Shown here in pieces: positions 11,214-29,116 of a stretch of DNA of 34,254 nucleotides (position 1 is the stretch's first letter; each line of letters begins with the position of its first letter). The stretch spans positions 1 to 34,254 of IMG/VR virus record IMGVR_UViG_3300006921_000065. One strand, written 5' to 3'. The notes under the pieces are model-generated. The model was given only the letters and a program-made list of their open reading frames with translations. It was not told where the DNA came from and searched no databases. Made by a program: the position numbers and the translations under genes. The DNA comes from a virus.

Positions 11214-12263
11214 TTAAACTCTTTTAAATTCTACATCTAAGTTAGAATAATTAACCATGTCATAACCATCTTTATTAACAATAATATTTTCTATAGGTAT
11301 TTCATCTGACATAACTCCTTGATAAATACCCTCACCATATTTTTTGTTTTTATATTCAAAAGTATATATGTTATAACCTTTATTTGATTTTGTTAAAAAC
11401 TTAATGTTTTTCTTTAATCTTCTATCACTAGCAGCAGACATTATCATAGCAGAACCAATGGATCCAGCAGCATCTCCTGCTCCACCTACAACTGAGCCAA
11501 GTATTTGTGCTCTTCTGTTAAGTAAGTTTTGTAAATCTTGTTGTGCTCCAACAGTTCTTTGTGCTTGTATACCTAATGCGGTAGCTTCTCTATCAAATTG
11601 TCTTTGTTGAGCAATATCTGCTCCTTGAGCACGAAACATTTGTGATCTAAGATCTAAATCTGCAAGAGTCAAATCTCTTTGTTGTTGTTGTTGTGCTGCT
11701 AAAAGTTGATTTCTAGAACCTTCTTCAGCTATTGCTCTTTGATTTGCAATTTCTTGCGCTAAAATTGTTTGTTGATTTACAGCAGACTCAGAAGCAACTG
11801 CTCCTTGCAAAGTAAATTCTTGACTTGCTCTTTGTTCATTAATATTAGCTTCTTGCTGACCTATAGATGCAGCTGCTTGTTGTAAATTTTGAGATTGCAC
11901 ACCTGAAACAGCTTGAGCAAGAGCAGCTATACCACTAGATCCTGCCGCACCTCTTAAGCTTCCAAGAGTATTAGATAAACCTTGCTGTTGTTGTTGAGCT
12001 AAAAATTCAGCTTCTCTTTGATTTATTGTTAAATCTTCAAACGTATTCTCTCTTTGTGCTTGAAAGTTTTGAAGTCCAACAAAAGGATTTGTAAATCTTT
12101 CAGAAAGATTAGTTAAATTTGACGCTGGAGCGTCTCCTAAAGTAGGTGCTGTAATTCCTGAATAAACATTTTCTAAAGGAAATTGTTTAAAACTTTGAAG
12201 CTCTCTATCTAATATCCCTTGTTGCTTACTTATTTCATCTCTTAATGCCCTTTTTCTACCCAT
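11214..12263 (-). CDS. Gln/Ala-rich internal virion or tail-knob protein with compact S74-like C-terminus (349 aa)
   Basis: Residues 60-250 are a long Gln/Ala-rich helical region with several glutamine runs (five at about 90-94 and 191-195). A small Gly/Ala hydrophobic stretch lies at 256-276. The last 70 residues begin with ASDRRLKKNI (Ser279, Lys284), followed by GYNIYTFEY, YQGVMSDEIP and YSNLDVEFKRV. This tail resembles a shortened peptidase-S74 (intramolecular chaperone) domain and is common at the end of phage internal or tail proteins. In S74 the Ser of SD-x-RLK cleaves the chaperone off after folding. Whether this short version cleaves is uncertain. Position (before the core protein and the giant) and helical Gln-rich build resemble T7 gp14-type internal proteins. 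Confidence 0.78.
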   Translation of the reverse strand: MGRKRALRDEISKQQGILDRELQSFKQFPLENVYSGITAPTLGDAPASNLTNLSERFTNPFVGLQNFQAQRENTFEDLTINQREAEFLAQQQQQGLSNTLGSLRGAAGSSGIAALAQAVSGVQSQNLQQAAASIGQQEANINEQRASQEFTLQGAVASESAVNQQTILAQEIANQRAIAEEGSRNQLLAAQQQQQRDLTLADLDLRSQMFRAQGADIAQQRQFDREATALGIQAQRTVGAQQDLQNLLNRRAQILGSVVGGAGDAAGSIGSAMIMSAASDRRLKKNIKFLTKSNKGYNIYTFEYKNKKYGEGIYQGVMSDEIPIENIIVNKDGYDMVNYSNLDVEFKRV

Positions 12264-12304: not shown

Positions 12305-12640
12305 TTACTTACTACTTTCAACTATTTCAGATCCCACTTGATACAATTCAACTTCACTTGTAGATTCATTTTTCATTTCAACTTCAGCAAAATATCCTAC
12401 TAGCGAAGATAGATTAGCTTTGTTGTCTTTACTAAAAAAAAAGAAATTACTTGTTGTAGGTACATCAGCAGTAGAAGCTACATTACATGTTACAGTTGTG
12501 TCTGTAAAAGCAGTTACACTACCAACTTCTATTGGAGAACCAGTTACGTTATTAGTTACTACAGCGTAATGAACTGTATCACCTATTTGTAAAGATTTAT
12601 TAATTGAATTTGCAAATGTTAAAGTTAATGAAGTTGCCAT
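12305..12640 (-). CDS. Small conserved virion-associated protein (111 aa)
   Basis: This beta-rich protein has the pattern LTFANSIN-SLQIGDTVHYAV, then VTAFTDTTVTCNV, a FFFFSKDNKANLSSL segment near residues 67-81 and a YFAEVEMKNES...EIVESSK ending. I recognise the second half (FSK-N--NLSSL-GY-AEV---N-S---EL--VGSE--ESSK) from many marine phages, where it lies directly after the tail genes as here. The role is unknown; a tail or head decoration protein is plausible. Its IGD...VTAFTDTTVT core loosely echoes the repeat module in the neighbouring giant tail protein, but too weakly to claim homology. There is a 9-base gap from the muzzle gene. Confidence 0.72.
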   Translation of the reverse strand: MATSLTLTFANSINKSLQIGDTVHYAVVTNNVTGSPIEVGSVTAFTDTTVTCNVASTADVPTTSNFFFFSKDNKANLSSLVGYFAEVEMKNESTSEVELYQVGSEIVESSK

Positions 12641-12649
12641 ATTTATAAT

Positions 12650-15600
12650 TTATAAAGCATTATTTAATGTTACTTTTATAGTCACTCTTAGTGTATCTGT
12701 TGATACCACATCTCCGTTACATGTTACAGCAAAATCAAAAGTAGCTTTTGTATTTGTAACACTAGGTAAACTGTCAAATCCAGTTAACTGAGTATTACTA
12801 GAATCAAAAAACTTAATGTTACTAATTTGCGGAGCAGAAGACCCTCCTGTAAATCTACTACTTGCAGTAATTGTTATTGATGCATCGTTAACAGTATTTC
12901 CATCTCCTCTAAATAAAACTTGTCCAGATCCAGAAATTGTATCACCATTTTCTGCTCCATTACCAGAGCCAAGCGTAACAAGCTTCTTAACTTTAACAGT
13001 TCCACCAGAGTTTGTGCTTGTAGAGTCATATAATCCACTAATAGTTAGCGTAGGATTTGAAGGTGCAGGTGCAGCGGCTCCTTCTCCCCCCACACTTAGT
13101 AAACTAGGTAACGATATAGTTGAAGTTAAACTTTTTGTACCAAATCTTATAACTTCTAAAACTCCAGTTATAGTATATGTGTTTGGGTTATTTCCAGTAG
13201 CTATATTTCCTGCTATATTTGAATATTCGATTATCCAATCATTAGGTGCTGAAAATGTTAAAGTATCATTTAAAGATATACTATTTTGTGCTAGTGAAAC
13301 TGAATTTTCTGATGAATGATTTAAAGTTAAATCTAAACTGTCAGAATCATTTTTACTAGAAACGAAAGTTCCTTCTGGTAAAGTCCCTCCAGTAACAACA
13401 CTAGATAAAGTTTTATCAGCATTTGCTTGTATTGAAATATTTCTCACACTTTCTGTTAAATCTATTACAGAAGTGGTTCCATTACCAACAGCACCTACTG
13501 TTCTTTTAGTATTAGCAAACCCAAAATCATCTGATGTTAAACTTCTAGATGAAGATAAAAACGTATTACCAGTGCTATCATTTGCAGTTATTGTAAAAGA
13601 AAAATTAACTAATCCAGATTTTGATAATTCTTTTGGTTCAGATAAAGATATACCAGTTATACTCTGATTTGCTGTAGATGTAGGATTTGCATGAGTAAAG
13701 GTTAAAGCTGTATCATTTGATAAATTTTGAGCATCTGATAAAGTTAAATTGTCTTGATCTATAACTACTGCTACAGTAACTACTCCTGAAATTCCAGTAC
13801 CAGTAACTACGTCACCTACAACAATATTACCTCCAGATTGACCATCTATATTTAAATCTGTTGTACTACCAAGTGATCCAACAACTGATGCAGTAACTTC
13901 AGAATTTAATGTTACATCAGGAGATATTGTCCAAGTAACTTCAGCAGTTTGATTAACAGATGTAGGATTTGCACCATTAAAAGATGTGGCTAAAGCAGTA
14001 TCTTCTTGAGCTTCAACTTCATAATTAAATGTTCTAAATGTAGAGTTTGCAGGATATTCTACTGGTATAGAATAAACACCTGAAGATGGTATAGTTTGTA
14101 CAGGATTGGAATATAAGTTTTCGGATAAATCACCAACATCAAATTTTTTACCATTCCAAAAATTTGAGAAAGTCAACTCTGTATTATCTGCTATTGTAGT
14201 AGAAGATGAAGCTGTTACAACCGTAGGAGATCCAGATGCGCTACTTACTCTTAATCCAGATTGCACATTATCACCTTTAATTCTCATACCTGAAAGAATA
14301 GCAGTATTTGTGTTGTCTAAATTTATAGTAGTAGAACCAGCAACAGCACCATTGACAGTATCTGTGGTAAATCTAGTTAATTTAAATTTAGCTCCTGCTC
14401 TACCAAATATTCTTATAAATCTAGTTTCTCCTCTAGCACCTACAGGCTTTGTTGACATTTCCATGCCTGTGATTTCATCTGCAAAATCTAAAAATGTTTT
14501 TTCTGCTTTAGCTGTTAGTAATATTTTATCTTCTGTGGGATTATTAGAACTAAACACATAGTAAACTTTTAATGTAACTGATGTAGGAAAAAAAGATAAA
14601 GTTGTATTTGCAGATATTTTAGCTGCAGTCGATAAAGTTAAAGTTGTACTATTTATTACTGATACTGTCGTAAAAGATGATATTCCTGATCCACTAACAG
14701 CCATTCCTACAGCTATTAAAGAATTAGAAGCACTAAGCGTTACAGTTACAGAATTATTTACATTTGATTGAACAACAGATGTAGTAGAAACAAAATCATT
14801 GCTACTTGTATAATCACTAAATTTACTTTCATCTTCTTCTAAAACATCTAATGTTGGTGCAGACCTAAATTCAAATCCAGTGTCTGCTCTAAATGTTCTA
14901 GATATTATCTCTTTACCAAATCTTAACAAAGTGTCATCAGGTATTGTAGCATTTAAATCTGCACCTGTACCATCCTTTATTGTTAAATCTGTTAAATTAG
15001 CTCCAGTTATAGTTTTAACTAAAGCATTATCAGGCACACCAGATCCTATTATAGCCATATTAGCTGATATTAAACTATTGCCTGTTAAATTATGTAATAC
15101 AGGACTGTTGTCTGTGCTTAATCCATTTACTATGGCATTTACATAATAATCTCCACTACCACTATAACCAAAATTATAAACAGATGAAGTTTGTGTATTC
15201 TTTTCATCAGTGTTAAAAACTCCTGTTACTTTATATTGAATTTTCGATAAAGTGGTTACAGCTATACTAGGCTGTATTGTAACATTACCACCAATAGCTT
15301 CATTTACTAAATTAAAAGTTACTTCAACTGTATTTGAAGCAGTACCTGCTGTTCCTGTATCTGACTCATTTGCTGATGCTATTTTGCTTAAACTACTACT
15401 ACCAGTAACTTGACTAGCAGAAATAACGTAACCAGTATTAGGTGTAATTGTAAATACAGCAGTTTTACCAGCACCAATAGCTACACCACTTGTAGATTCT
15501 ACTGTAACACTACCACTTATTGTAAAATTAAGTAAAGTTATACTTGGAGTTATTGTTAATGTTCTAGTGACTGTTCCAGAATCAGATATATTCGAAGGAA

Positions 15601-18600
15601 AACCCAACCCTTGTACAGATAACTCTTTCGTGTCTATGTTAGATGATGTTGTGCTATCACCTAATATTTGATTAAATTTAAAGTTTTCTTTTTCTTTAAA
15701 AAATCTGACACTACCAGTTTGTTGATCTGTAGTTATAGAATCAGCAAACCATCCTTTTGTTTCTGCTTCTGGTAATGCAGCTATACTATCAGGAGAAAGC
15801 CCTGCTTTCTTAAGAACCTCTAATGTTGTACCTGCTCCATAAACAGGTGTAAATGTTAAGGTAACACCATCACTTATACTTTGAGCACTTGATAATACTA
15901 AATTATTTTGATCAGTGACAGTAGTAACGGTTACGGTTCCTGATATTCCAGAACCAGTTACTACATCTCCCACAACAATGGTTCCAGAATTACCATCAAC
16001 AACTAAAGCTGTTGAGCTAGTTATTGTACCGTTTACTACAGCTGTGCTAGTTGTTCCTCCGTATGTATATTTTCTAGAGTCACTACCCTCATAATTTAAT
16101 GTTTTAAAACTTTTTACACTTTCAGGAAAATCATTAAATATAAACTTTACAGAAGATGGACTTGCTGTATCATAAAAAGTATTTCTTGTTGCACTGTCGT
16201 GAGAATATAAATCTCCATTTTTATAAGTGTAATAAATATTATTTAATGAAAATCCAGCTTCAGGTATAAAAGATTTAAAACTAGTCCACCCATCAACTCT
16301 TTCATCAAAACTTATTGTTTGATTATTTAAAGTTATATTGTAAGATCCTTTGTCATCATCATAACTACCAAGTATTGTTGTAGATAAAGGCAAGTTATCT
16401 CCAAAAAAATCAGTCATACCTTTCTCAGATATTTCAGTCAACCCATCTCTAGACAATCTTAATACTGCACCTCTAGCTTTATCTGAAAAGTATATTCTAA
16501 AAGCATGTGATGCAAATGATTCTGGATTTCTAGATATGCCATACTCACCAACGTATGGAATTGCTTGACCTAAAACTGCACTCGTAGCTGTTAAGTTAGT
16601 ATTTCCATCAGCATTAAATAAAGCATCTTTATTCGCTAATACTTTTAATATTTTATCCTCACAAAATGTAATTAAATCCGCATCTCTAGCATATATTCTT
16701 TGTATAGTCCCATATTCAGGATTTATATCTTTTGTTATTGGTAATGCTAATAAAAATTGATTAAGTTCATTAATACCTGATATAGAGTTGAATATTCCTG
16801 AAAATATAAATGTATTAGTTTTATGTTCTTCTTTATAATCTTCATTTAAAGTTGTAGACACTATAGGACCTTTATCAATAAAAGATGTATTAAAATCATC
16901 TCTTATTCTATTAGATTCTACTCCATTGCCAAAAGAAAAAACATTATACCAATCTAAAGAATTTACTTGACCATGAACTTGATTATCTGCTAATACAACA
17001 GATTTAGATGTAGCAACATCTCCACTAGTAGTTATTGTAAAACTATATATACTATCCTGATCAGTAAAAGTTAATACAGTCCCACTAGACATAGTTCCAT
17101 TAGTGTTGTTTAATAGTTCTATATTACTACCATCAACTACAGATTCAACAACATTAGAATTACCAGACCCTACATTTGTGCCAGTAACAGTCATACCTGC
17201 TTTTATAATAGGTAATGCATTACTTGCCTCGTGATATATATCTAACCCTTCTTTTGTTTTTGGTTCTGTTTCAAATATTGCAGGATTATTAGAATTTATT
17301 TTTTCATCATCTATTTGTATGTTTTTCTTTACTAAAGATATGTTATTTATTCTTCCAAAAGAGGTTGAAGTCGCAGCAGAAGCATTAAATCCATCATCAT
17401 ATAGATCTCCTGTTTCTTGATTTCTTATAAATATTTTATATAATCTTCTTTTACCACTTATCCATGTTTTTTTCGTAGCATTATAAGTTCTAAATTCAGA
17501 TTTTACACTACTTCCTGTAACTTCATATATTTGACCTTTGTCTCCAAAATCATTACTAAATTGTATTAATGCTCCCGGTTTTGTTATTTCTGTTATAAGT
17601 GGATTTACATTTACACTTAAATTATCTTCTTTAGCACCATACTCACCTATATCTATACCTCCAAAATAAAACTGAAAAAATTCAGATCCTTTTTTAGGAT
17701 GTGTGTCTACTGGTCCTAATGTGTTTTCTACATCTCCAAAGTCTTTATCACCCCAAGCAAAATTTTGTTTTGGTTCTTCAGAACCTTCATCTTTATTTGA
17801 AAAATCATTTAATAGATTTGAATTAATAGTTTCACTTTTAGTTACATCAAATCTAGATTTTACTGATGGAAATACTTCTATTATATTTCTATCTAATGTA
17901 GAATCTCTAGATACTTTAACAAAAAATCTACCAAAGAATTCATCTTTAGGTTCTATTGTTTTTCTAAATATATTTACGTTAATATCTTTACCTTCAGACA
18001 CTAAATCTGATGCAAACACATCTTCATCACTTTCGTGAATTGGATCTTTTAATGTTACATCATAAACAGTTCCATTACTAGATAAACCACCACTTTCTAT
18101 TTTATATTTTCTAGATACTCTAGCTGGAGCTTGAATAAAAGTTATAACTACATTTTCATCTAAAGTTTGATTTGTTGATAAAACTAAAGATGCAGTGGTA
18201 GAATCTTGATTTGTAATTTTTGTTACTACAGGATTGTTCTGAATTCCGTCACCTGTTAATTGATCTCCTACTCTTATGGTATTTTGTTTTCCATCTACTT
18301 CTAGTGTATTCCTTTCTGAAATATCGCTTTTTACAGAAGCTGTAGCTATTTGATTTGGATTAGGAATATCTGTAGATATTTGTATTTCACTTTCAGTTCT
18401 AAATGCAGAAGAAAATGAAGGATTTGAAGATGCTTCAGGTCCATTAAATTGAAAAAAAGTAGAACCAACTGCTGGTTGATTTACTGACAATGTTGAACAA
18501 CTAGCTTTTCCTGAAGAAATTAATTTTTGAGATATAAAATCTGGTGCTTCATTAGATATATCTAAGATTCTATATCTAGCTTTTTCTGATACAAACTTAT

Positions 18601-21121
18601 TATTATCATGTTGTTTTTTAAGTATTAAATAAGTTTCTTCATCCACTTTATTTCTTTCAGCTGATGGAAATGATAACCAAATATTACCATCTTCTGCAAA
18701 ATAAAATTTATCAAGAGCTAGGTTATAGTATTCACTAGAAGTTTCTTTTACAAAAAATTTATAATGTGTTGCCCAATCAGGAGCATTATTTTGTAGCTGT
18801 ACATTTATTCTATTTTTTGTTATACCAAAAGATTTTCCTAATTTAATGGATGATTTTTTTGAAGAAAAAACCGGACTTTCTCTTCCATATCTGTCAGAAT
18901 AAGTTGTACCTATTTGATATGTTCTTAATGATTTAACTGATTTTTCACCTATTTTTTTATTAGTAAAAGTTAAAACAGTATTTTCTTCTATATATACCTC
19001 TTCGGATCCATAATTACTTCCATCTTTATAATCATCCTTGTTTATTTTTGTTCTTACAAATATTGTTAATTCTTGATCTAATATGTTTTTTACAAAAGTA
19101 TGTCTAGGCACTCCTTCACCTGTTATCAACATACCTATTTTAATTAAAGGATTAGAAGCTGATAAAGTAATTTTATTATTTTCTCCGGGATTAGATGAAG
19201 ATACAACAGCTGTAATTTCTGTATCAGAAGCACTTTGTTCTACAGTTACATCAATGTCAGGAGTGTTTTGTTTTAATAAATTATAACCTTGATAATAATT
19301 TGCAAATATTAATCTGTTAGCTATAATTTCTTGAGCTTTTGCTTTTTTAGGTACATTATCAAAAGGTCTTAATATTTGATTTGACTCTACTACTGCACCA
19401 AAACTTTCAGACAAAACAGAATAAGATGTTTCTCTATTTTTTAAAACATCTAACACATACACAACATTACTAACTGAATCTTTAACTAATATTTCAACTA
19501 ACTCTACATCATTTGGTTGAGTATCAAAACCACCTAAAGAAAGTGTTCTTATAGAGTTTTTCATACCTATATTGTGACTTTCATCACTTTCATACAAAAA
19601 CTCACTAGGTAAAAAAGCTACTTCAGAAAAAGGTGAAAATGTAGAATATTGACCTTCTTTATATTTCCATCTATAAGCAAATCTTACAAAACTATCTTCA
19701 AACAAAGGATCTTTTTCTTTTAATGTAGCAATCCAAGTAACAGATCCTAAATCTGGTAAGTTTAAATTTATTGTTTGTATAATAAAAGTTGCTGAATGAG
19801 TATCTGAATCAGGATATCCTTCAGTAATAATTTTAGAATTTATTAAACCTAATACTTTTACGGTTATTGTGTGTTTAGTTTCTTTAAAATTATCTAATTC
19901 AGTATGCTCTAATACTATAATATCATCTTTTATAAAATTAGCTTTATTGTCAAATTCTATATCAAATTTAGACCCTGAAGTTAAAACAGATCCTCCACTA
20001 TAAAAATTTTTTTCAATATATACAGGAGTACCACCTTCAATACCAGAGGAGCTTTGAGTTCTTTCAGTAGAAGACATTGTTAACGTGGGTGCTTTTAATG
20101 GAGATTGCTTAATTACAGTAATATCTTTTTCTGTAAAATCTGCATTATTAATTTGAGTGTGATAATTAAATGTACTAGAACCTTCTTTAAATTTAGATAT
20201 TTTTATTAATTTAGGTTCGGTTTGATTATCTGTCCAAGATAACAATCCACTAATAACATTTGCACCTGTTATTAAATATTCATCACTATATTTTAGTATG
20301 TTATTTTTATCAACCAGAACTGGTGATATTTCTCCTGTTGTACTATCAAACTCTGCAATACAACTAACTTGAGATTTAAATGTTAATAATGCGTTGTCTT
20401 TTAATAGAGAGTTACTAGATAAGGTAATATTGTTTTGATTTGTGACTGTTGCTACTGTTACTTTACCAGATATTCCTGCACCACTAACGGTCATCCCTAC
20501 TTCAATAGTGCCGGAATTATTATCAAGAACAATTGCTGTTCTTTTTGGAGTAAATGTTAAAGAGACATCATTAGATATAGTTTGAAGACTATCTATAAAT
20601 ATAACTTGTAATCCACCGTCTACTGAAGAAATAGCTGTTACTTTAACTTCACCAATAATTCCTGTTCCTTCCACCACATCCCCAATACTAACAGTACCAC
20701 TTATATTATCTATATTTATAGTAGAAGACTGATTTACTGTTGTATCATTAACTGAAGCTGTTGATATAGCAACATCTCCACTAATAGTTATTGATGCGGT
20801 GGCAGTAGACCCAGAAGATATAAACCAATATACTTTATCATTCTGAGGGTCGACAACATATCCTATGCATTTAGGGTTTGTTAAGTCTTTTATTGAAGAT
20901 GAGCTACTACCCCAATCAGTTAGTAAACCTGTACCACTATCAAAGCTTCTACCATCTTTTAAAGTATTACCTAAAACATTTTGAATAGACCCAACGTCAG
21001 ATCCTTCAGAAGTAATTATTTCAATATTCTGAGCGTCTCTATATTCACCATTAGGTATTAATCTTTCATCTAGATCTTTATTCATTCGACCTCTACGAAA
21101 GTGATGCTTTATATTTGCCAT
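12650..21121 (-). CDS. Giant tail-muzzle / tail tubular-type protein with about ten inserted beta modules (2823 aa)
   Basis: The N-terminus has GRMNKDLDERLIPNGEYRDA (residues 10-29), then SEGSDVGSIQNVLGN and VDPQNDKVYWFI. This is the hallmark start of the large tail-nozzle/muzzle protein that follows the ring proteins in crAss-like and marine short-tailed phages. The conserved core (for example LITGANVISGLLSWTDNQTE near 284, and strands with ISEKGMTDFFGDNLPL near 1560) is interrupted by a repeated module of about 65-75 residues. The module pattern is VVDG-SG-I-VGD-VTG-GISG-VTV--V-DQNNL-LS...LTFTP. Copies lie near residues 120-193, 195-250, 635-720, 920-995, 1300-1357, 1690-1760, 2002-2072, 2112-2182, 2252-2320 and 2405-2480. 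Another weak one is near 2544-2625. The C-terminal 250 residues are Ser/Thr/Asn-rich and Ig-like. At roughly twice the usual size of such proteins (recalled), it probably forms a long decorated tail tip that contacts the host. Confidence 0.85.
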   Translation of the reverse strand: MANIKHHFRRGRMNKDLDERLIPNGEYRDAQNIEIITSEGSDVGSIQNVLGNTLKDGRSFDSGTGLLTDWGSSSSSIKDLTNPKCIGYVVDPQNDKVYWFISSGSTATASITISGDVAISTASVNDTTVNQSSTINIDNISGTVSIGDVVEGTGIIGEVKVTAISSVDGGLQVIFIDSLQTISNDVSLTFTPKRTAIVLDNNSGTIEVGMTVSGAGISGKVTVATVTNQNNITLSSNSLLKDNALLTFKSQVSCIAEFDSTTGEISPVLVDKNNILKYSDEYLITGANVISGLLSWTDNQTEPKLIKISKFKEGSSTFNYHTQINNADFTEKDITVIKQSPLKAPTLTMSSTERTQSSSGIEGGTPVYIEKNFYSGGSVLTSGSKFDIEFDNKANFIKDDIIVLEHTELDNFKETKHTITVKVLGLINSKIITEGYPDSDTHSATFIIQTINLNLPDLGSVTWIATLKEKDPLFEDSFVRFAYRWKYKEGQYSTFSPFSEVAFLPSEFLYESDESHNIGMKNSIRTLSLGGFDTQPNDVELVEILVKDSVSNVVYVLDVLKNRETSYSVLSESFGAVVESNQILRPFDNVPKKAKAQEIIANRLIFANYYQGYNLLKQNTPDIDVTVEQSASDTEITAVVSSSNPGENNKITLSASNPLIKIGMLITGEGVPRHTFVKNILDQELTIFVRTKINKDDYKDGSNYGSEEVYIEENTVLTFTNKKIGEKSVKSLRTYQIGTTYSDRYGRESPVFSSKKSSIKLGKSFGITKNRINVQLQNNAPDWATHYKFFVKETSSEYYNLALDKFYFAEDGNIWLSFPSAERNKVDEETYLILKKQHDNNKFVSEKARYRILDISNEAPDFISQKLISSGKASCSTLSVNQPAVGSTFFQFNGPEASSNPSFSSAFRTESEIQISTDIPNPNQIATASVKSDISERNTLEVDGKQNTIRVGDQLTGDGIQNNPVVTKITNQDSTTASLVLSTNQTLDENVVITFIQAPARVSRKYKIESGGLSSNGTVYDVTLKDPIHESDEDVFASDLVSEGKDINVNIFRKTIEPKDEFFGRFFVKVSRDSTLDRNIIEVFPSVKSRFDVTKSETINSNLLNDFSNKDEGSEEPKQNFAWGDKDFGDVENTLGPVDTHPKKGSEFFQFYFGGIDIGEYGAKEDNLSVNVNPLITEITKPGALIQFSNDFGDKGQIYEVTGSSVKSEFRTYNATKKTWISGKRRLYKIFIRNQETGDLYDDGFNASAATSTSFGRINNISLVKKNIQIDDEKINSNNPAIFETEPKTKEGLDIYHEASNALPIIKAGMTVTGTNVGSGNSNVVESVVDGSNIELLNNTNGTMSSGTVLTFTDQDSIYSFTITTSGDVATSKSVVLADNQVHGQVNSLDWYNVFSFGNGVESNRIRDDFNTSFIDKGPIVSTTLNEDYKEEHKTNTFIFSGIFNSISGINELNQFLLALPITKDINPEYGTIQRIYARDADLITFCEDKILKVLANKDALFNADGNTNLTATSAVLGQAIPYVGEYGISRNPESFASHAFRIYFSDKARGAVLRLSRDGLTEISEKGMTDFFGDNLPLSTTILGSYDDDKGSYNITLNNQTISFDERVDGWTSFKSFIPEAGFSLNNIYYTYKNGDLYSHDSATRNTFYDTASPSSVKFIFNDFPESVKSFKTLNYEGSDSRKYTYGGTTSTAVVNGTITSSTALVVDGNSGTIVVGDVVTGSGISGTVTVTTVTDQNNLVLSSAQSISDGVTLTFTPVYGAGTTLEVLKKAGLSPDSIAALPEAETKGWFADSITTDQQTGSVRFFKEKENFKFNQILGDSTTSSNIDTKELSVQGLGFPSNISDSGTVTRTLTITPSITLLNFTISGSVTVESTSGVAIGAGKTAVFTITPNTGYVISASQVTGSSSLSKIASANESDTGTAGTASNTVEVTFNLVNEAIGGNVTIQPSIAVTTLSKIQYKVTGVFNTDEKNTQTSSVYNFGYSGSGDYYVNAIVNGLSTDNSPVLHNLTGNSLISANMAIIGSGVPDNALVKTITGANLTDLTIKDGTGADLNATIPDDTLLRFGKEIISRTFRADTGFEFRSAPTLDVLEEDESKFSDYTSSNDFVSTTSVVQSNVNNSVTVTLSASNSLIAVGMAVSGSGISSFTTVSVINSTTLTLSTAAKISANTTLSFFPTSVTLKVYYVFSSNNPTEDKILLTAKAEKTFLDFADEITGMEMSTKPVGARGETRFIRIFGRAGAKFKLTRFTTDTVNGAVAGSTTINLDNTNTAILSGMRIKGDNVQSGLRVSSASGSPTVVTASSSTTIADNTELTFSNFWNGKKFDVGDLSENLYSNPVQTIPSSGVYSIPVEYPANSTFRTFNYEVEAQEDTALATSFNGANPTSVNQTAEVTWTISPDVTLNSEVTASVVGSLGSTTDLNIDGQSGGNIVVGDVVTGTGISGVVTVAVVIDQDNLTLSDAQNLSNDTALTFTHANPTSTANQSITGISLSEPKELSKSGLVNFSFTITANDSTGNTFLSSSRSLTSDDFGFANTKRTVGAVGNGTTSVIDLTESVRNISIQANADKTLSSVVTGGTLPEGTFVSSKNDSDSLDLTLNHSSENSVSLAQNSISLNDTLTFSAPNDWIIEYSNIAGNIATGNNPNTYTITGVLEVIRFGTKSLTSTISLPSLLSVGGEGAAAPAPSNPTLTISGLYDSTSTNSGGTVKVKKLVTLGSGNGAENGDTISGSGQVLFRGDGNTVNDASITITASSRFTGGSSAPQISNIKFFDSSNTQLTGFDSLPSVTNTKATFDFAVTCNGDVVSTDTLRVTIKVTLNNAL
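13682..13905 (-). repeat. Beta module copy in muzzle gene
   Basis: This encodes a module with TDLNIDG, NIVVGDVVTGTGISG, VVIDQDNLTLSDAQ and ALTFTH. It is among the best-preserved copies of the family that recurs in this gene and in the ring-protein gene at 22499-22732. Confidence 0.75.
15842..16051 (-). repeat. Beta module copy in muzzle gene, closest to the ring-protein copy
   Basis: It encodes TSTAVVNGT, TALVVDG, IVVGDVVTGSGISG and TDQNNLVLSSAQS, ending LTFTPV. Bases 15891-15913 match 22548-22570 with a single difference. This is the muzzle module most like the one inserted in the ring protein. Confidence 0.8.
20372..20764 (-). repeat. Tandem pair of beta modules near the muzzle N-terminus
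   Basis: Two modules lie back to back (residues about 120-250), splitting the conserved VYWFISS strand from the SCIAEFDSTTGEISPVLV strand that normally follows soon after. The second contains IEVGMTVSGAGISG, VTNQNNITLSS and LLTFK. Confidence 0.72.
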
Positions 21122-21124
21122 ACT

Positions 21125-22273
21125 TTAATGTTTAATACGTTTAGATTTACCTCTCATTACTTGAGATAACTCTTCTAATTTAAGATTAGATAATCTTAGT
21201 TTAGCTGTTCTTGTAGCAGCAAATTTTTCTTTTTTAAATCTATTAACAATATATTCAGGTACATTTATTTTAGTTGATAATATGGCGTGAGCTAAATATT
21301 TATACATAGCTTCTTCGGCAAATTTATGTACAATCATTTCTGAATCTTTACCTAAACTATCGCTAATATATTTTAATATAACAACCTGACCACTTATGTT
21401 AGAGCTAAAATGTATATTACCTCTAAGTTCATCAATATAATAAACTCCATTTATTTGTGCTGACTCAGGATCTATCCCATATCTTCCACCAACCATTAAC
21501 TTTGTTTGGTCATCAACAATGCTTTTACTTTTTATAGTATGTTCATCACTTGTATTTTGTTTATATTTTTCCCAAGCAAATGACTCCTCAGATTCAAGTA
21601 AATCTCCTGTTGTGTTGTCAAATAAAAAATTATAATCAGAATCTTGTAATATTGATCTAGGATTACTTGTAGATCTTGAAGGATATATTACTCTTTCGAT
21701 TCCTGTATCTCGTTCAACCCAACTTAGTCTAACTTTACTTACATAATCTTGAGGTAACGGTAGTTTTAAAGTTGGAGGTATTTCTGATTCAAATGTTTTT
21801 TTACATTTAAAAACATCATAGCTAAATTCTTGTAATGCTCTTTGGGCGTGAAAGGCTACATCTGCTCTTCTAACTCTATTAATTATTTTTTCATAGCCAA
21901 CATAAGAAACCATAAAGTTGTTTATAATATCATCAATACTTACAAACTGATAATTACCAAAAGATTCACTTTGTTCAATTTCTTTTACTAAAACAGTTAA
22001 ACCAGATAATGGTGCACCATTTGTAGCTTGAACATCTGCATTTACATTTGTAGATGAAAAAGTTAATGTTGGTGATGAATAACTATAGTTAGAGCTAGAT
22101 ATTTGAGTACCATCAATAAAAACATCAAATTGTGTTTCGGCTGTAGGTAGTGTAGGGAAAAATGTTGTGGTTAATGTAAAGGCTACCGTACCAGAACTAC
22201 CAGACCCATCTCCTGTAAATGTTTGACTTTGATTATAATAACTTTGTTCAGTTGTTGTACCTAATAATCCCAT
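21125..22273 (-). CDS. Tail ring / tail-stabilisation (adaptor) protein (382 aa)
   Basis: Residues about 107-200 carry a conserved block: NYQFVSIDDIINNFMVSYVG, then RRADVAFHAQRALQEFSYD, IPPTLKLPLPQDYV and IERVIYPSR. I recognise this from the tail-stabilisation/ring proteins that precede the muzzle gene in crAss-like and marine relatives. The helical C-terminus (EEAMYKYLAHAIL, RFKKEKFAATRTAKLRLSNLK) also fits. Residues about 12-104 (TFTGDGSGSSGTVAFTL ... VFIDGTQISSSNYSYS) look like a separate beta domain placed between the first residues and the conserved block. The protein should sit between the portal/adaptor ring and the muzzle, sealing the neck and attaching the tail. It is 3 bases upstream of the muzzle gene and 6 bases after the other ring gene. 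Confidence 0.82.
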   Translation of the reverse strand: MGLLGTTTEQSYYNQSQTFTGDGSGSSGTVAFTLTTTFFPTLPTAETQFDVFIDGTQISSSNYSYSSPTLTFSSTNVNADVQATNGAPLSGLTVLVKEIEQSESFGNYQFVSIDDIINNFMVSYVGYEKIINRVRRADVAFHAQRALQEFSYDVFKCKKTFESEIPPTLKLPLPQDYVSKVRLSWVERDTGIERVIYPSRSTSNPRSILQDSDYNFLFDNTTGDLLESEESFAWEKYKQNTSDEHTIKSKSIVDDQTKLMVGGRYGIDPESAQINGVYYIDELRGNIHFSSNISGQVVILKYISDSLGKDSEMIVHKFAEEAMYKYLAHAILSTKINVPEYIVNRFKKEKFAATRTAKLRLSNLKLEELSQVMRGKSKRIKH

Positions 22274-22279
22274 ATTTTA

Positions 22280-23200
22280 TTATGTTTTTCTTTCTACCTC
22301 TTGAGCAGCTTGTTGATAAAGTAAAGGGTCTTTAATTGAAATACCGGCTAATTCTAATATTGTTAATACAAGTTCTGTTTCTTCAGATTCATGTAGTTCA
22401 AAATCAACAGAATTTGTAGAATTAAATAAAGCTTCTCCATTAACTATTGTATAATCAAAAGAAGCATTTGTTGGTTTATCTACATAATTACATTTTACAC
22501 TAGGTGTGAATGTTAAACCTCTATCATTAGTTAGTGATTGAGCAGAGGATAAAACTAAATTATTTTGATCGGTTAAACTTACAACTGTAACAGTTCCAGA
22601 AACACCTGCAGATGAAGATGGATCAGTGTTTGTGACAGTATCTCCAACAGCAATATTTCTATTTGTAGACTGACCATCTACTACTAAAGCTGTAGCACTA
22701 CTTGTTGTTCCATTTACAACTGCTGTAGATGAAGCTAAAGATAAAGGGTATAGTTTTATTGTTGTTTTACTTTGCCTAGTAAAATAAGGTCTATTTAAAT
22801 TTGCCCTAGTTAGGGGAGCTTTTTCTAAATCTAAAACATCATTTTGTGAAACTTCATCTAGTTCAATGGGGTATGTTCCACCAGTATACATAATAGTTCC
22901 TAGTCTATAAACGTCAGTTGGTAGTGTAGCAATTCCAGATGAATCTATAGTAGAAATGCTTTGTTGATATTTTTGGAATATAGCTATTTTTTCATTTATT
23001 AAATCTATCATATTAGAATACTCAGTATCATTACCGGGTGCTCTAACAAATTGATTAACATCGTAAAAATATTGTTCAAATATATCTAACTGAGCTTGAT
23101 TGGCAAATAAGTTAAACTCTTGGGGAGTTATGTATCCTCTTTGTTCCTTGTTAGCAATCGCTAAAACTCTTTGATATACTGTATCTACACTTACTGCCAT
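22280..23200 (-). CDS. Tail ring / head-tail adaptor protein with inserted beta module (306 aa)
   Basis: The N-terminus (VYQRVLAIANKEQRGYITP at 8-26, then EFNLFANQAQLDIFEQYFYD) is a block I recognise from a ring/adaptor protein that precedes the tail-stabilisation protein in crAss-like and marine phages. The C-terminal part (VKCNYVDKP at about 235, then FELHESEETELVLTILELAG at 267-286) is the normal continuation. Between TTIKLYP (about 146-152) and VKCNY lies an 80-residue Ser/Thr-rich module nearly the same as one in the giant muzzle protein. The ring protein is thus about 80 residues longer than its conserved framework. It probably forms a dodecameric ring under the portal. A 13-bp inverted repeat lies just upstream. 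Confidence 0.82.
   Translation of the reverse strand: MAVSVDTVYQRVLAIANKEQRGYITPQEFNLFANQAQLDIFEQYFYDVNQFVRAPGNDTEYSNMIDLINEKIAIFQKYQQSISTIDSSGIATLPTDVYRLGTIMYTGGTYPIELDEVSQNDVLDLEKAPLTRANLNRPYFTRQSKTTIKLYPLSLASSTAVVNGTTSSATALVVDGQSTNRNIAVGDTVTNTDPSSSAGVSGTVTVVSLTDQNNLVLSSAQSLTNDRGLTFTPSVKCNYVDKPTNASFDYTIVNGEALFNSTNSVDFELHESEETELVLTILELAGISIKDPLLYQQAAQEVERKT
22499..22732 (-). repeat. Beta module inserted in ring-protein gene
   Basis: It encodes STAVVNGT, TALVVDGQS, IAVGDTVT, VSGTVTV, TDQNNLVLSSAQS and LTFTPS. It is clearly the same module as the copy at 15842-16051, with a small extra loop (NTDPSSSAG). It separates two strands of the ring-protein framework. Confidence 0.82.
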
Positions 23201-24177: not shown

Positions 24178-25686
24178 TTATTTCAATAACATAAAGTTGT
24201 TAGCACCTTGAGTGACTAAACATCTTTCTGATAAGAAATGTATTTGCATTGCATCCAAAGCAGCTGTTGCAGCACCTACAGAACCTGTAACCCAAGTTTT
24301 CATTTTTCGGTCATCAGTCTGTGAAGCTCTGTAACGAACATGTAAGAATGGTCGCTTCATATTAGTACCTAAAGTTTGATCATAAACTGTAGATACTCCA
24401 GCTGGAACAATAACACCTCTAATTGCATTAACAGTGTCTCTTTCATTAATTCCACCTCTAGTAGCTTTATCATTTAAATACCTAAAGTCAGACTTATAAA
24501 AATCATAAGATCCTCTTCTAAATCCTGAGAATCCTAAATTTAAAGCCATTTCTTCATCATTGCTAAATACTCCATAAGAAGTACCACCAGCACCATAAGA
24601 GTTCATTGAAGCAAGCATGTCATCAATAGCAAGAGATGTTCCTCTGTTTACAAATAACATGTTTTCTTCAATAGCTCCTTGCTTATCAAATTCTGCTAAA
24701 ATAGCATCAAACTCAGCTAAATCAGTTGCAGCGTTTACTCCTGTAACTCCAGAGGAGATATTTCCTCTGCTTTCAATAGCAGCAAACAAACCTTCAGTAC
24801 CAGTTAATGTAGTTCCGTCAGTTCCTAAAAATGCATCTACTTTAGTCTCATCTGCGTCAGCTAAAATAGATTCTAACATAGACATTTCTAAATAATCTGA
24901 GAATCTAGATCTTGTATCAGACTCTGCTTTTAAATACCAAAGATAACCAGAGGCTCCTCCTTCAGAAGAAACTTCAATCCATCCAATACGAGAAACATCA
25001 GATCCTGATACTTCGTAGTAATCTTTCAAAATAATTGGTTTGTTTTGAAAAGACTTAAATTGAGGTTCATTTGCCTGACGTGAAGTGCTTCCATTGTAGT
25101 TATCTCCTTTTTTAAATTCAGATCCATAAACTAATATAGTAGCTTCATCAGCACCACTTCCAGCAGCTAAACCAGCATTTGCTAATGTAGCTGTTGTATT
25201 TCCAGCATCATACACAGCAACATTAATTTTATCATTAGATACTGCAGTAACAAGACATTGAACAGTTGCGCTAGAATCTGCTATTAAAACTGTATCATTA
25301 ACTCTAATACCATGATCAACAGAAGATGTTCCAATAGAATTTCCATCTATATCAGTATCTATTTCAAAAACTCCACCTTCTTCATTCCCATTTTGAACTT
25401 GTTGCGTTGCATTCTCAACATGCCCCTTATAAGAAAGGTGTAGTCTACCTTGCTCTGACCAAACAACTTGATCAGCTGTCATTGGTTCTTCAGCACCAAT
25501 CTGAGATAAAAATCCAGATATTGTTCTGTTTCCAAATACTTCAGCTTCTTTATCCATTAAGTCAGGGACATATTGCTGTGCCCATCCTTGTCCGGCTGAA
25601 GAAGCTAAGTCTAAATAATTAGTGTTCAAAGTTGCCTTAGTAGGCGCTGGAACACTATTTAAATTACTTCCTGCGGTAATTGCCAT
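24178..25686 (-). CDS. Major capsid protein, HK97-fold type (502 aa)
   Basis: The C-terminal segment (RPFLHVRYRAS, DDRKMKTWVTGSVGAATAAL, MQIHFLSERCLVTQGANNF) and the central VYGSEFKKG, PIILKDYYEVSGSD and WYLKAESDTRSRF are motifs I recognise from the major capsid proteins of crAss-like and related marine phages. The length of about 500 residues fits that group. Such proteins adopt the HK97 fold. The stretch at about 90-195 (HGIRVNDTVLIADS ... EATILVYGSEF) is the normal extra beta domain of this group, not an insertion. It follows the scaffold by 27 bases and is closed by a strong terminator. No N-terminal protease-cleaved delta domain is evident. Confidence 0.88.
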   Translation of the reverse strand: MAITAGSNLNSVPAPTKATLNTNYLDLASSAGQGWAQQYVPDLMDKEAEVFGNRTISGFLSQIGAEEPMTADQVVWSEQGRLHLSYKGHVENATQQVQNGNEEGGVFEIDTDIDGNSIGTSSVDHGIRVNDTVLIADSSATVQCLVTAVSNDKINVAVYDAGNTTATLANAGLAAGSGADEATILVYGSEFKKGDNYNGSTSRQANEPQFKSFQNKPIILKDYYEVSGSDVSRIGWIEVSSEGGASGYLWYLKAESDTRSRFSDYLEMSMLESILADADETKVDAFLGTDGTTLTGTEGLFAAIESRGNISSGVTGVNAATDLAEFDAILAEFDKQGAIEENMLFVNRGTSLAIDDMLASMNSYGAGGTSYGVFSNDEEMALNLGFSGFRRGSYDFYKSDFRYLNDKATRGGINERDTVNAIRGVIVPAGVSTVYDQTLGTNMKRPFLHVRYRASQTDDRKMKTWVTGSVGAATAALDAMQIHFLSERCLVTQGANNFMLLK

Positions 25687-27034: not shown

Positions 27035-29116
27035 TTATCCTTCTAGAGTTTCTATTCTAGATTTAAGATCTTCTATAATAACTTGTTGCTCTTGGATTGC
27101 TTTGACTAATCCTACATAAATTGCATTTTTTTCCAAACCAAATCTTTGATCACCGTCATAATCAAATTCCGATACTGATTCGGGAATTATCTCTTTTACT
27201 TCTTGAGCAATAAAACCAAATTGTTTCTTTGAGTTTTTATCTCCGTCTAACCAATTAAATTTTACTGATCTTAATTTTAATATTTCAGATAATCCGTAAT
27301 CAATATTTTCAATGTTTGTTTTTAATCTTGAATCAGATGGGTCAGTATTTGTTAAAATTCCTGCTCCTGTCGAAAAAACATCACCACTTCCTAAATCATT
27401 TACTTTTACAGATGTTGAATACATTTGCCCTGTAATATTAACACCAGATGCTGTAATATTTGCAGTATTTGTAGCACCAGCTGTAAATATCAGTGTATTA
27501 TCACTATGAGTATATGTTATCCCACCTACATCAGTATCATCAGTATCTCCAAATTTAACAGAACCTTGACCAGAGGTTGATGATACAATAGTCATTCCCA
27601 CTGAAGCCACACCGGGATCAATAATAAAATCGTCTGCCACTGATTCTACACTAGTAGTACCAGTTCCGCATCTAAGTGTACTATTTTGAACTAGTGTACC
27701 ATTAGATTTAAGAGTCGTTCTATTTGTTAAACTCGCATTATTTCCAGTGGGTTTAGTACCAAAAACAATATCCATACCTCCTGCATCTGCTCCAAACGCT
27801 TCTGCTGCCTGAACTTTAATTTCAGCACCAACAGTTATAGCATCACTTCCATCTGATTCATCTGGAGCTTGAAATTGCATTTTACCTATGGCATTTTCTG
27901 AGGCAATTGCTGTTTTACTTGTTTGAAAAGTAAGTACTGCTGCATCAGCAACAGTATTTTTTAATATAACACCTTTATTGTGCTCGTGTTTTAAAGTAAC
28001 ATCTCCATTTGCACCAAAAACAAATCCTTTATCATCTGCACTTGTTGCTATATCACCATTTTCTACTACTAAATTTCCTCCACTACCAGAAGCACCAAAA
28101 GTAAATGCTTGATTACCATTAGTGTAAATTCTTATTTCACCTCCATTACCAGATGATGAAATACCAGACTGACCAGTCGCTAAAGCAGTTCCTTCAAACT
28201 CTATTCCTTGTGTAGAAATTACAACTCCATCAGCTTCAATTTTTAAAGCATCAGCATCAGTGGCAGACCCAATCGTACCAGCATCTGGTATTTTAATGTT
28301 ACCTGCAAAAGTTGCATTTTGACTAGCACTTATACTTAATGCTAAAGTAGCACTATCACCATCATTATTTCCACCATTATAAAACTCCATTACACCGCTA
28401 GAGCCTCTAATTTCTAAGTCATTACCACCAAGTTTGATATATGAGTTGTACTCAGTACCACCTGTTTGTGTAAGCTGAAGAGTAGGTGTTGAACTTTTAC
28501 TTATTTGGACATCTCCTCCTTCAAAAGTTGCATCACCTGCAAAAGTTACATCACCTCCAGATCCTATTGTCATCGCACTAGTTGCACTAGTATGACCTAT
28601 TGTTGTGCCATTTATAATAATATTATCAACTGTTAATGTTGTAAGTGTACCAAGTGAAGTAATATTACTTTGTGCTGCACCAGTTACTGTAGCTGCTGTC
28701 CCAGATGCATTTCCTGTAACATTACCTGTTAATGGTCCAGCAAAAGCATCAGCTGTTACTGTACCATCAAAAAATGCATCTTTAAACTCTAAGGATGAAG
28801 TGCCTAAATCTATTTGATTAGTAGTTGCTGGAGCTAATACAGAAGAAGTTAGTGTTAATCTATTTGCATTATCTACTTTAAAATCTATTTCATTAACTGT
28901 ACCAAAATCAATAGCAGTTTGTGCATCTTCACCTATAATAAGATCAGTGGCAAGTATAGAATTAATATTTGTTTGTGCTGCTGTTAACACTTGACCAGTA
29001 AGGTTACCAGTAACATTACCAGTGACGGTATTTATAAACGCTGTAGACCAACGCTTTGCTGTTACACCAATCCCACCTTCTCCGTTATCGTTAGGTACTA
29101 TGTTTTTAGTTGCCAT
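27035..29116 (-). CDS. Fibre/appendage protein with C-terminal S74 self-cleaving chaperone (693 aa)
   Basis: Residues 1-560 are low-complexity beta repeats with GNVTGNLTG-type and TFAGDATFEGG-type strands, typical of trimeric phage fibres. The last 100 residues are a full peptidase-S74 domain: SDSRLKTNI (Ser594, Lys599), GLSEILKLRSVKFNW, KQFGFIAQEVKEIIPESV, then a coiled-coil end (VKAIQEQQVIIEDLKSRIETLEG). In this family Ser and Lys catalyse autocleavage before the Ser once the fibre trimer has folded, releasing the chaperone. It is probably a receptor-binding or head fibre. Its position between the small head genes and the scaffold, not among the tail genes, suggests a head-attached fibre (inference). 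Confidence 0.85.
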   Translation of the reverse strand: MATKNIVPNDNGEGGIGVTAKRWSTAFINTVTGNVTGNLTGQVLTAAQTNINSILATDLIIGEDAQTAIDFGTVNEIDFKVDNANRLTLTSSVLAPATTNQIDLGTSSLEFKDAFFDGTVTADAFAGPLTGNVTGNASGTAATVTGAAQSNITSLGTLTTLTVDNIIINGTTIGHTSATSAMTIGSGGDVTFAGDATFEGGDVQISKSSTPTLQLTQTGGTEYNSYIKLGGNDLEIRGSSGVMEFYNGGNNDGDSATLALSISASQNATFAGNIKIPDAGTIGSATDADALKIEADGVVISTQGIEFEGTALATGQSGISSSGNGGEIRIYTNGNQAFTFGASGSGGNLVVENGDIATSADDKGFVFGANGDVTLKHEHNKGVILKNTVADAAVLTFQTSKTAIASENAIGKMQFQAPDESDGSDAITVGAEIKVQAAEAFGADAGGMDIVFGTKPTGNNASLTNRTTLKSNGTLVQNSTLRCGTGTTSVESVADDFIIDPGVASVGMTIVSSTSGQGSVKFGDTDDTDVGGITYTHSDNTLIFTAGATNTANITASGVNITGQMYSTSVKVNDLGSGDVFSTGAGILTNTDPSDSRLKTNIENIDYGLSEILKLRSVKFNWLDGDKNSKKQFGFIAQEVKEIIPESVSEFDYDGDQRFGLEKNAIYVGLVKAIQEQQVIIEDLKSRIETLEG

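Follow-up and report, generated by a model that had tools for sequence, protein, structure and literature searches.

Most known cases of domain shuffling in phage tails concern fibres, spikes and endolysins, and the adaptor ring is usually regarded as a conserved structural piece. The adaptors of T7 and SU10 consist of a helix bundle and a beta domain, which serves as the dock of the fibres in both phages (PF24175; 7z47; PMC9509320, PMC6702177), and the loops of this dock domain protrude radially in the SU10 adaptor (PMC9509320). The tail barrel of phicrAss001 is built with rings R1-R4, which are encoded by four paralogous genes (7qoj; PMC10172136), whereas one clear ring gene is seen in the DNA analysed here, a 34,254-nt fragment of a marine crAss-like phage that is referred to below as the window (L-numbers designate the loci and contigs compared with it). 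Its ring protein carries a segment that matches a module of the muzzle protein encoded in the same window.

The ring protein and its gene neighbourhood

The model of the ring protein (pLDDT 81) has the helix bundle and beta domain fold of ring and adaptor proteins. Its best Foldseek matches are the tail-barrel rings of phicrAss001 (7qoj, chains D-F, E 3e-6 to 1e-5), followed by the SU10 adaptor (7z47, E 8e-5). With the Pfam model SU10_adaptor (PF24175) the protein scores 15.1 bits, which is under the gathering score of 27; the same model matches 7 of 39 relatives, with a best E of 0.002. No sequence relative was retrieved from the PDB with a profile of the ring. The genes are arranged in the order ring, tail protein and muzzle, the last with a crAss muzzle C-terminal domain, and this order is the same in Maribacter phage Panino. 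The ring gene does not strictly adjoin the muzzle gene, as had been assumed in the initial annotation, because a 382-aa gene separates the two (Table 1). By fold and neighbourhood, we take the protein to be a crAss-type tail ring (adaptor), for which a 12-fold ring is expected by homology with 12-fold adaptor rings.

Several other products of the window have features of their own. In that of the 382-aa gene, an N-terminal extension of ~95 aa, of low complexity and beta-rich, precedes the phrog-matching region. The fibre-like product of 27035-29116 (phrog_5668) and that of 11214-12263 terminate in an SDxRLKxNI-type motif that resembles the beginning of chaperone-type S74 domains. In the presumed major capsid protein (24178-25686), a stretch around residues 100-190 is beta-rich and might represent a domain insertion comparable to the crAss I-domain. 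Directly downstream of the muzzle gene lies the gene of a 111-aa protein (12305-12640) with the beta motif LQIGDTVHY; both this protein and part of the muzzle match phrog_18548.

Table 1. Positions in the window of the ring and muzzle genes, the gene between them and the module copies
Feature	Position	Strand	Basis
Tail ring/adaptor protein, 306 aa, carries insert	22280..23200	-	phrog_14543; Foldseek of model
Inserted module copy in ring, 77 aa including 6-aa extra loop	22499..22729	-	module HMM, 63 bits; absent in 66/81 relatives
382-aa gene between ring and muzzle	21125-22273		region matching phrog_13977
Muzzle protein, 2823 aa, 10 module copies	12650..21121	-	phrog_14478, E 5e-128; PF25729 crAss_MUZ_C, 31.3 bits, above cut-off
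Muzzle module copy	20546..20761	-	HMM
Muzzle module copy	20372..20545	-	HMM
Muzzle module copy, divergent, with loop insert	18959..19213	-	HMM
Muzzle module copy	18131..18343	-	HMM
Muzzle module copy, divergent, partial	17060..17242	-	HMM
Muzzle copy closest to ring insert, loop at reference position 1322	15845..16045	-	protein match, codon test
Muzzle C-terminal module copy	14915..15136	-	HMM
Muzzle C-terminal module copy	14585..14782	-	HMM
Muzzle C-terminal module copy	14162..14365	-	HMM
Muzzle C-terminal copy (copy 2411)	13691..13894	-	best match: L331 bacterial SprB-protein module, 66% aa

The segment in the ring protein and its relation to the muzzle

In the ring protein, 82 residues separate the motifs TIKLYP and VKCNY; the match to the muzzle module covers 77 of these. 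Among 81 ring relatives from viral contigs, this phage included, the site is 74-99 aa long in 15 and 6-23 aa long in 66; the insert-less rings have a short hairpin there, such as TIKIYPSTLADSSSIVCNY in L016. A ring tree built without the insert columns places the carriers in clade A (this phage, L006, L086, L007 and L008; support 99/93) and clade B (L009-L015 and L017-L019; support 98/90). The sister of clade A, L016 and L032, is without insert, and two changes are enough to explain the distribution. Because the relatives carry either a long or a short stretch at this site, the data support the segment being an optional insert, that is, a movable domain outside the ring fold. The earlier description of a mobile domain thus gains from the 66 relatives that have no such segment, including the sister lineage of clade A. 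It is quite improbable that the segment belongs to the normal ring fold and was lost in the relatives: the same site is used in two separate clades, and in the module tree a single clade for both sets of inserts is not rejected (AU p 0.40), but the absence from most relatives and from the sister lineage, together with the greater simplicity of two gains over one gain and two losses, speaks against this explanation, and the insert-less relatives led to its rejection.

The history of the module and that of the surrounding ring core differ in several comparisons. This phage and L086 have modules of 95% nucleotide identity with 94% identical codons, whereas their ring cores are about 85-86% identical with 75% identical codons; the cores of L006 and L086 are more similar, yet their modules are 82% identical; and in the comparison of this phage with L008 a silent-site signal persists in the core (z 3.1), whereas the module has 53% amino acid identity and a z of 1.4. 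Since module and core identities disagree in these three pairs, they suggest that phages have exchanged, at the ring site, either the module or the tracts that surround it.

The module is confidently predicted to be a small six-stranded beta barrel of ~67 residues (pLDDT 94.1, pTM 0.82). No match to this model was found in the PDB at E 0.001, and Ig-family Pfam models have no match in the ring or muzzle protein of this phage. The model resembles small barrels of a phage tail tube, of Arthrobacter phage Bridgette and of F1-ATPase, where a RIFT-type comparison yielded TMq 0.5-0.6 at E 0.08 or more, as well as domains predicted in structural proteins of marine phages. An HMM built from module copies finds all ten muzzle copies of Table 1. 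In the muzzle relatives, which range from 1407 to 2931 aa, modules occupy constant loop sites (reference positions 83, 482, 693, ~990, 1278 and 1322) and in a C-terminal array. Among the sampled muzzle relatives, sites 83, 482, 693 and 1322 are occupied only in clade A, and the module at 1322 only in this phage, L006 and L008.

From the similarity of the ring and muzzle copies, the initial annotation had concluded that the module was transferred within the genome. Its coordinates and the protein match are correct. Here, ring 22499-22729 and muzzle 15842-16069 match with an E of 6e-18 and 64% amino acid identity, the copy at 15842-16051 is the best own-genome match of the ring insert, and two other places in the muzzle match more weakly. 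At the DNA level, a run of 23 bases indeed contains a single difference, but it is compatible with chance, as 187 of 1000 synonymous resamplings with the codon usage of this phage give 22 or more identities in the best 23-base window (p 0.19); the run therefore adds nothing to the protein match. In the codon comparison, the two copies are 70% identical in amino acids and 69% in DNA, and the identical residues share the same codon in 26 of 48 cases, for an expectation of 22.4 from codon usage (z 1.1), so that the DNA identity is no higher than the protein similarity and the codon usage predict. Silent sites between the ring and muzzle copies are saturated. The same codon test applied to orthologous modules of this phage and L006 gives a z of 3.6 for the ring and 6.1 for the muzzle, both clearly different from random.

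A recent duplication of the muzzle module 15842-16051 into the ring gene, by DNA-level transfer or gene conversion, is consequently most improbable; the codon test and the synonymous resampling rule it out. Both modules reside in one genome, the muzzle provides the best own-genome match, and the clade A ring inserts group loosely with modules from the muzzles of the phages that carry them (85/82), all of which would agree with such an event. Against it, apart from the silent sites and the 23-base run, the two copies were already separate lineages in the ancestor of this phage and L006, none of the 32 sampled same-contig pairs of similar modules exceeds a silent-site z of 2.8, and a bacterial module (score 202) and a module of an unrelated nozzle (199) match the ring insert as well as the own muzzle does (203). 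What may survive of the proposed transfer is an ancient copy within the lineage, because the module trees are short (69 columns) and few of their deep branches are supported. In the ancestor of this phage, L006 and L008, one module would then have passed from loops of the muzzle into the ring, or the other way round, and the copies would have diverged since. The limitation of muzzle sites 83, 482, 693 and 1322 and of the clade A ring insert to one sampled clade, as well as the weak 85/82 group, fit this scenario; we nevertheless consider it doubtful, as the exclusive group dissolves once bacterial modules are added (47 mixed rows, 81/79) and bacterial modules are the best match of some muzzle copies.

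Occurrence of the module in other phages and in Bacteroidota

The ring insert is matched about equally well by modules of unrelated phages and by the muzzle copy of this phage. Nozzles of HMO-2011-type podoviruses (phrog_5107) contain the module, among them that of the cultured Roseobacter phage CRP-345, and further carriers are a baseplate wedge of the T4 gp8 type, a tail fibre with CBM5/12, a DUF7483 fibre and other structural proteins. By tblastn, a phage collection yielded no matches to the module alone or to the muzzle C-terminal part, for the module probably because low-complexity masking hides it. The module is independently inserted into other SU10-type adaptors, two further lineages of which were found. 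One is the adaptor of L216 (L216:1036-1944; PF24175, 62.5 bits), which is the sole module carrier among the 80 loci listed for its family; the other 79 include relatives with about 90% identity in the best segment. The L216 insert has no strong silent-site match to any sampled module (best z 3.2). The other is the L317 adaptor group (PF24175, 25.8 bits, just below the cut-off), in which the module is present in tandem copies. The nozzle gene next to the L216 adaptor (L216:1917-4019) also has modules.

A scan of 84,980 bacterial species genomes retrieved seven loci, every one in Bacteroidota MAG records; the alignment that was used (A1) is narrow, so the scan favours modules like those of this phage, and more distant ones may exist in other phyla. 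The seventh of these loci is a phage nozzle gene, and the other six (L327-L332) encode large proteins rich in repeats, which measure 1635-2502 aa as read and contain 3-6 modules apiece. Two of them, L331 and L332, have 8-10 SprB repeats and a signal-peptide-like start; MAG contigs can be misbinned, but the SprB repeats argue for a bacterial origin of these two proteins. The best SprB stretches lie outside the modules, and two bacterial module copies gave no match to the SprB repeat PF13573; weak matches to RimM_N were obtained for bacterial copies. Across the bacterial set, identity to the ring insert reaches 71% at the amino acid level. In the tree with bacterial modules, one weak group (81/79) contains every bacterial module together with the clade A ring inserts and many of the muzzle modules; most modules of other phages are placed outside it. 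The hosts of this phage are likely marine Bacteroidota, as judged from distant cultured relatives, the Flavobacterium and Maribacter phages.

Proposed role and comparison with known systems

The reading that we favour, and regard as rather probable, is that the insert is a common marine accessory barrel, drawn from a pool in phages and hosts that spreads by recombination, and that it decorates the surface of the tail ring, where it is displayed outward. Its acquisition would have been an in-frame insertion at the tip of a beta-hairpin of a crAss-type ring, within the beta domain that is the fibre dock of related adaptors. Whole domains would move by recombination among phage tail genes, the module pool of this phage group would be common to the giant surface proteins of marine Bacteroidota, the likely hosts, and the domain would be swapped between lineages at the ring site. 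By homology with 12-fold adaptor rings, twelve barrels may surround the outside of the tail barrel and make contacts with the host surface or matrix that are weak and multivalent, or else brace the fibres. We infer the outward display from the fibre-docking role of the beta domain in the adaptors of T7 and SU10 and from the radially protruding SU10 loops, and for the same reason a role in surface contact or binding seems most likely.

A purely structural insert, which would hold fibres or adjacent ring subunits in place without taking part in binding, is possible though unlikely: the site lies in the fibre-docking domain and similar barrels are found in capsid and tube proteins, but swapping and the presence or absence in close relatives speak against a core structural contact. 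A more speculative extension of the accessory-barrel reading, to which we attach little weight, is that marine crAss-like phages capture modules from the giant surface proteins of their hosts, and plug them into ring and muzzle loops. If so, tail and host surface would show the same barrel, docking to the cell surface or matrix could be reversible, and module swapping could tune the host range. Independently of this extension, an adaptor ring is seen here to accommodate an entire domain at the tip of a hairpin, apparently on two occasions in its own family, and further SU10-type adaptors have done likewise. The same domain is present in large surface proteins of the phylum to which the hosts probably belong, which connects the proposed decoration of the virion with the surface architecture of the host.

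No such domain inserts were found described for adaptor rings in the literature consulted. The rings of phicrAss001 resemble the present one in ring fold, in the vicinity of a muzzle protein and in the 12-fold ring expected here, but for them an inserted barrel is not described (PMC10172136). SU10/T7-type adaptors share the helix bundle and the beta domain and differ from the present ring by the whole extra domain on a hairpin and by the Pfam score given above. A weak likeness of the module exists to the beta-barrel of phage endosialidases (PF12195; 1v0e, 4hiz; E 0.008), with a TM of about 0.45 to the phi92 endosialidase fold and 16.6 bits, which does not reach the gathering score of 35. Among SprB-type giant surface proteins of Bacteroidota, L331 and L332 have several copies of the module, but the SprB repeat itself is different from it, and these proteins are bacterial and not part of a virion. 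The SU10-type adaptor gp70 of Pelagibacter phage HTVC033P (L325:3501-4604) likewise has an extra domain on a beta-domain hairpin, although this insert of ~110 aa is different from the module and weakly CBM_4_9-like (E 0.02). A parallel in behaviour is offered by the Ig-like and other accessory domains of phage tails, which are optional, occur in functionally different proteins and are spread by recombination (PMC10684548), as is suggested for the module; the latter is a predicted barrel outside the Ig-family Pfam models, and its carrier is the adaptor ring.
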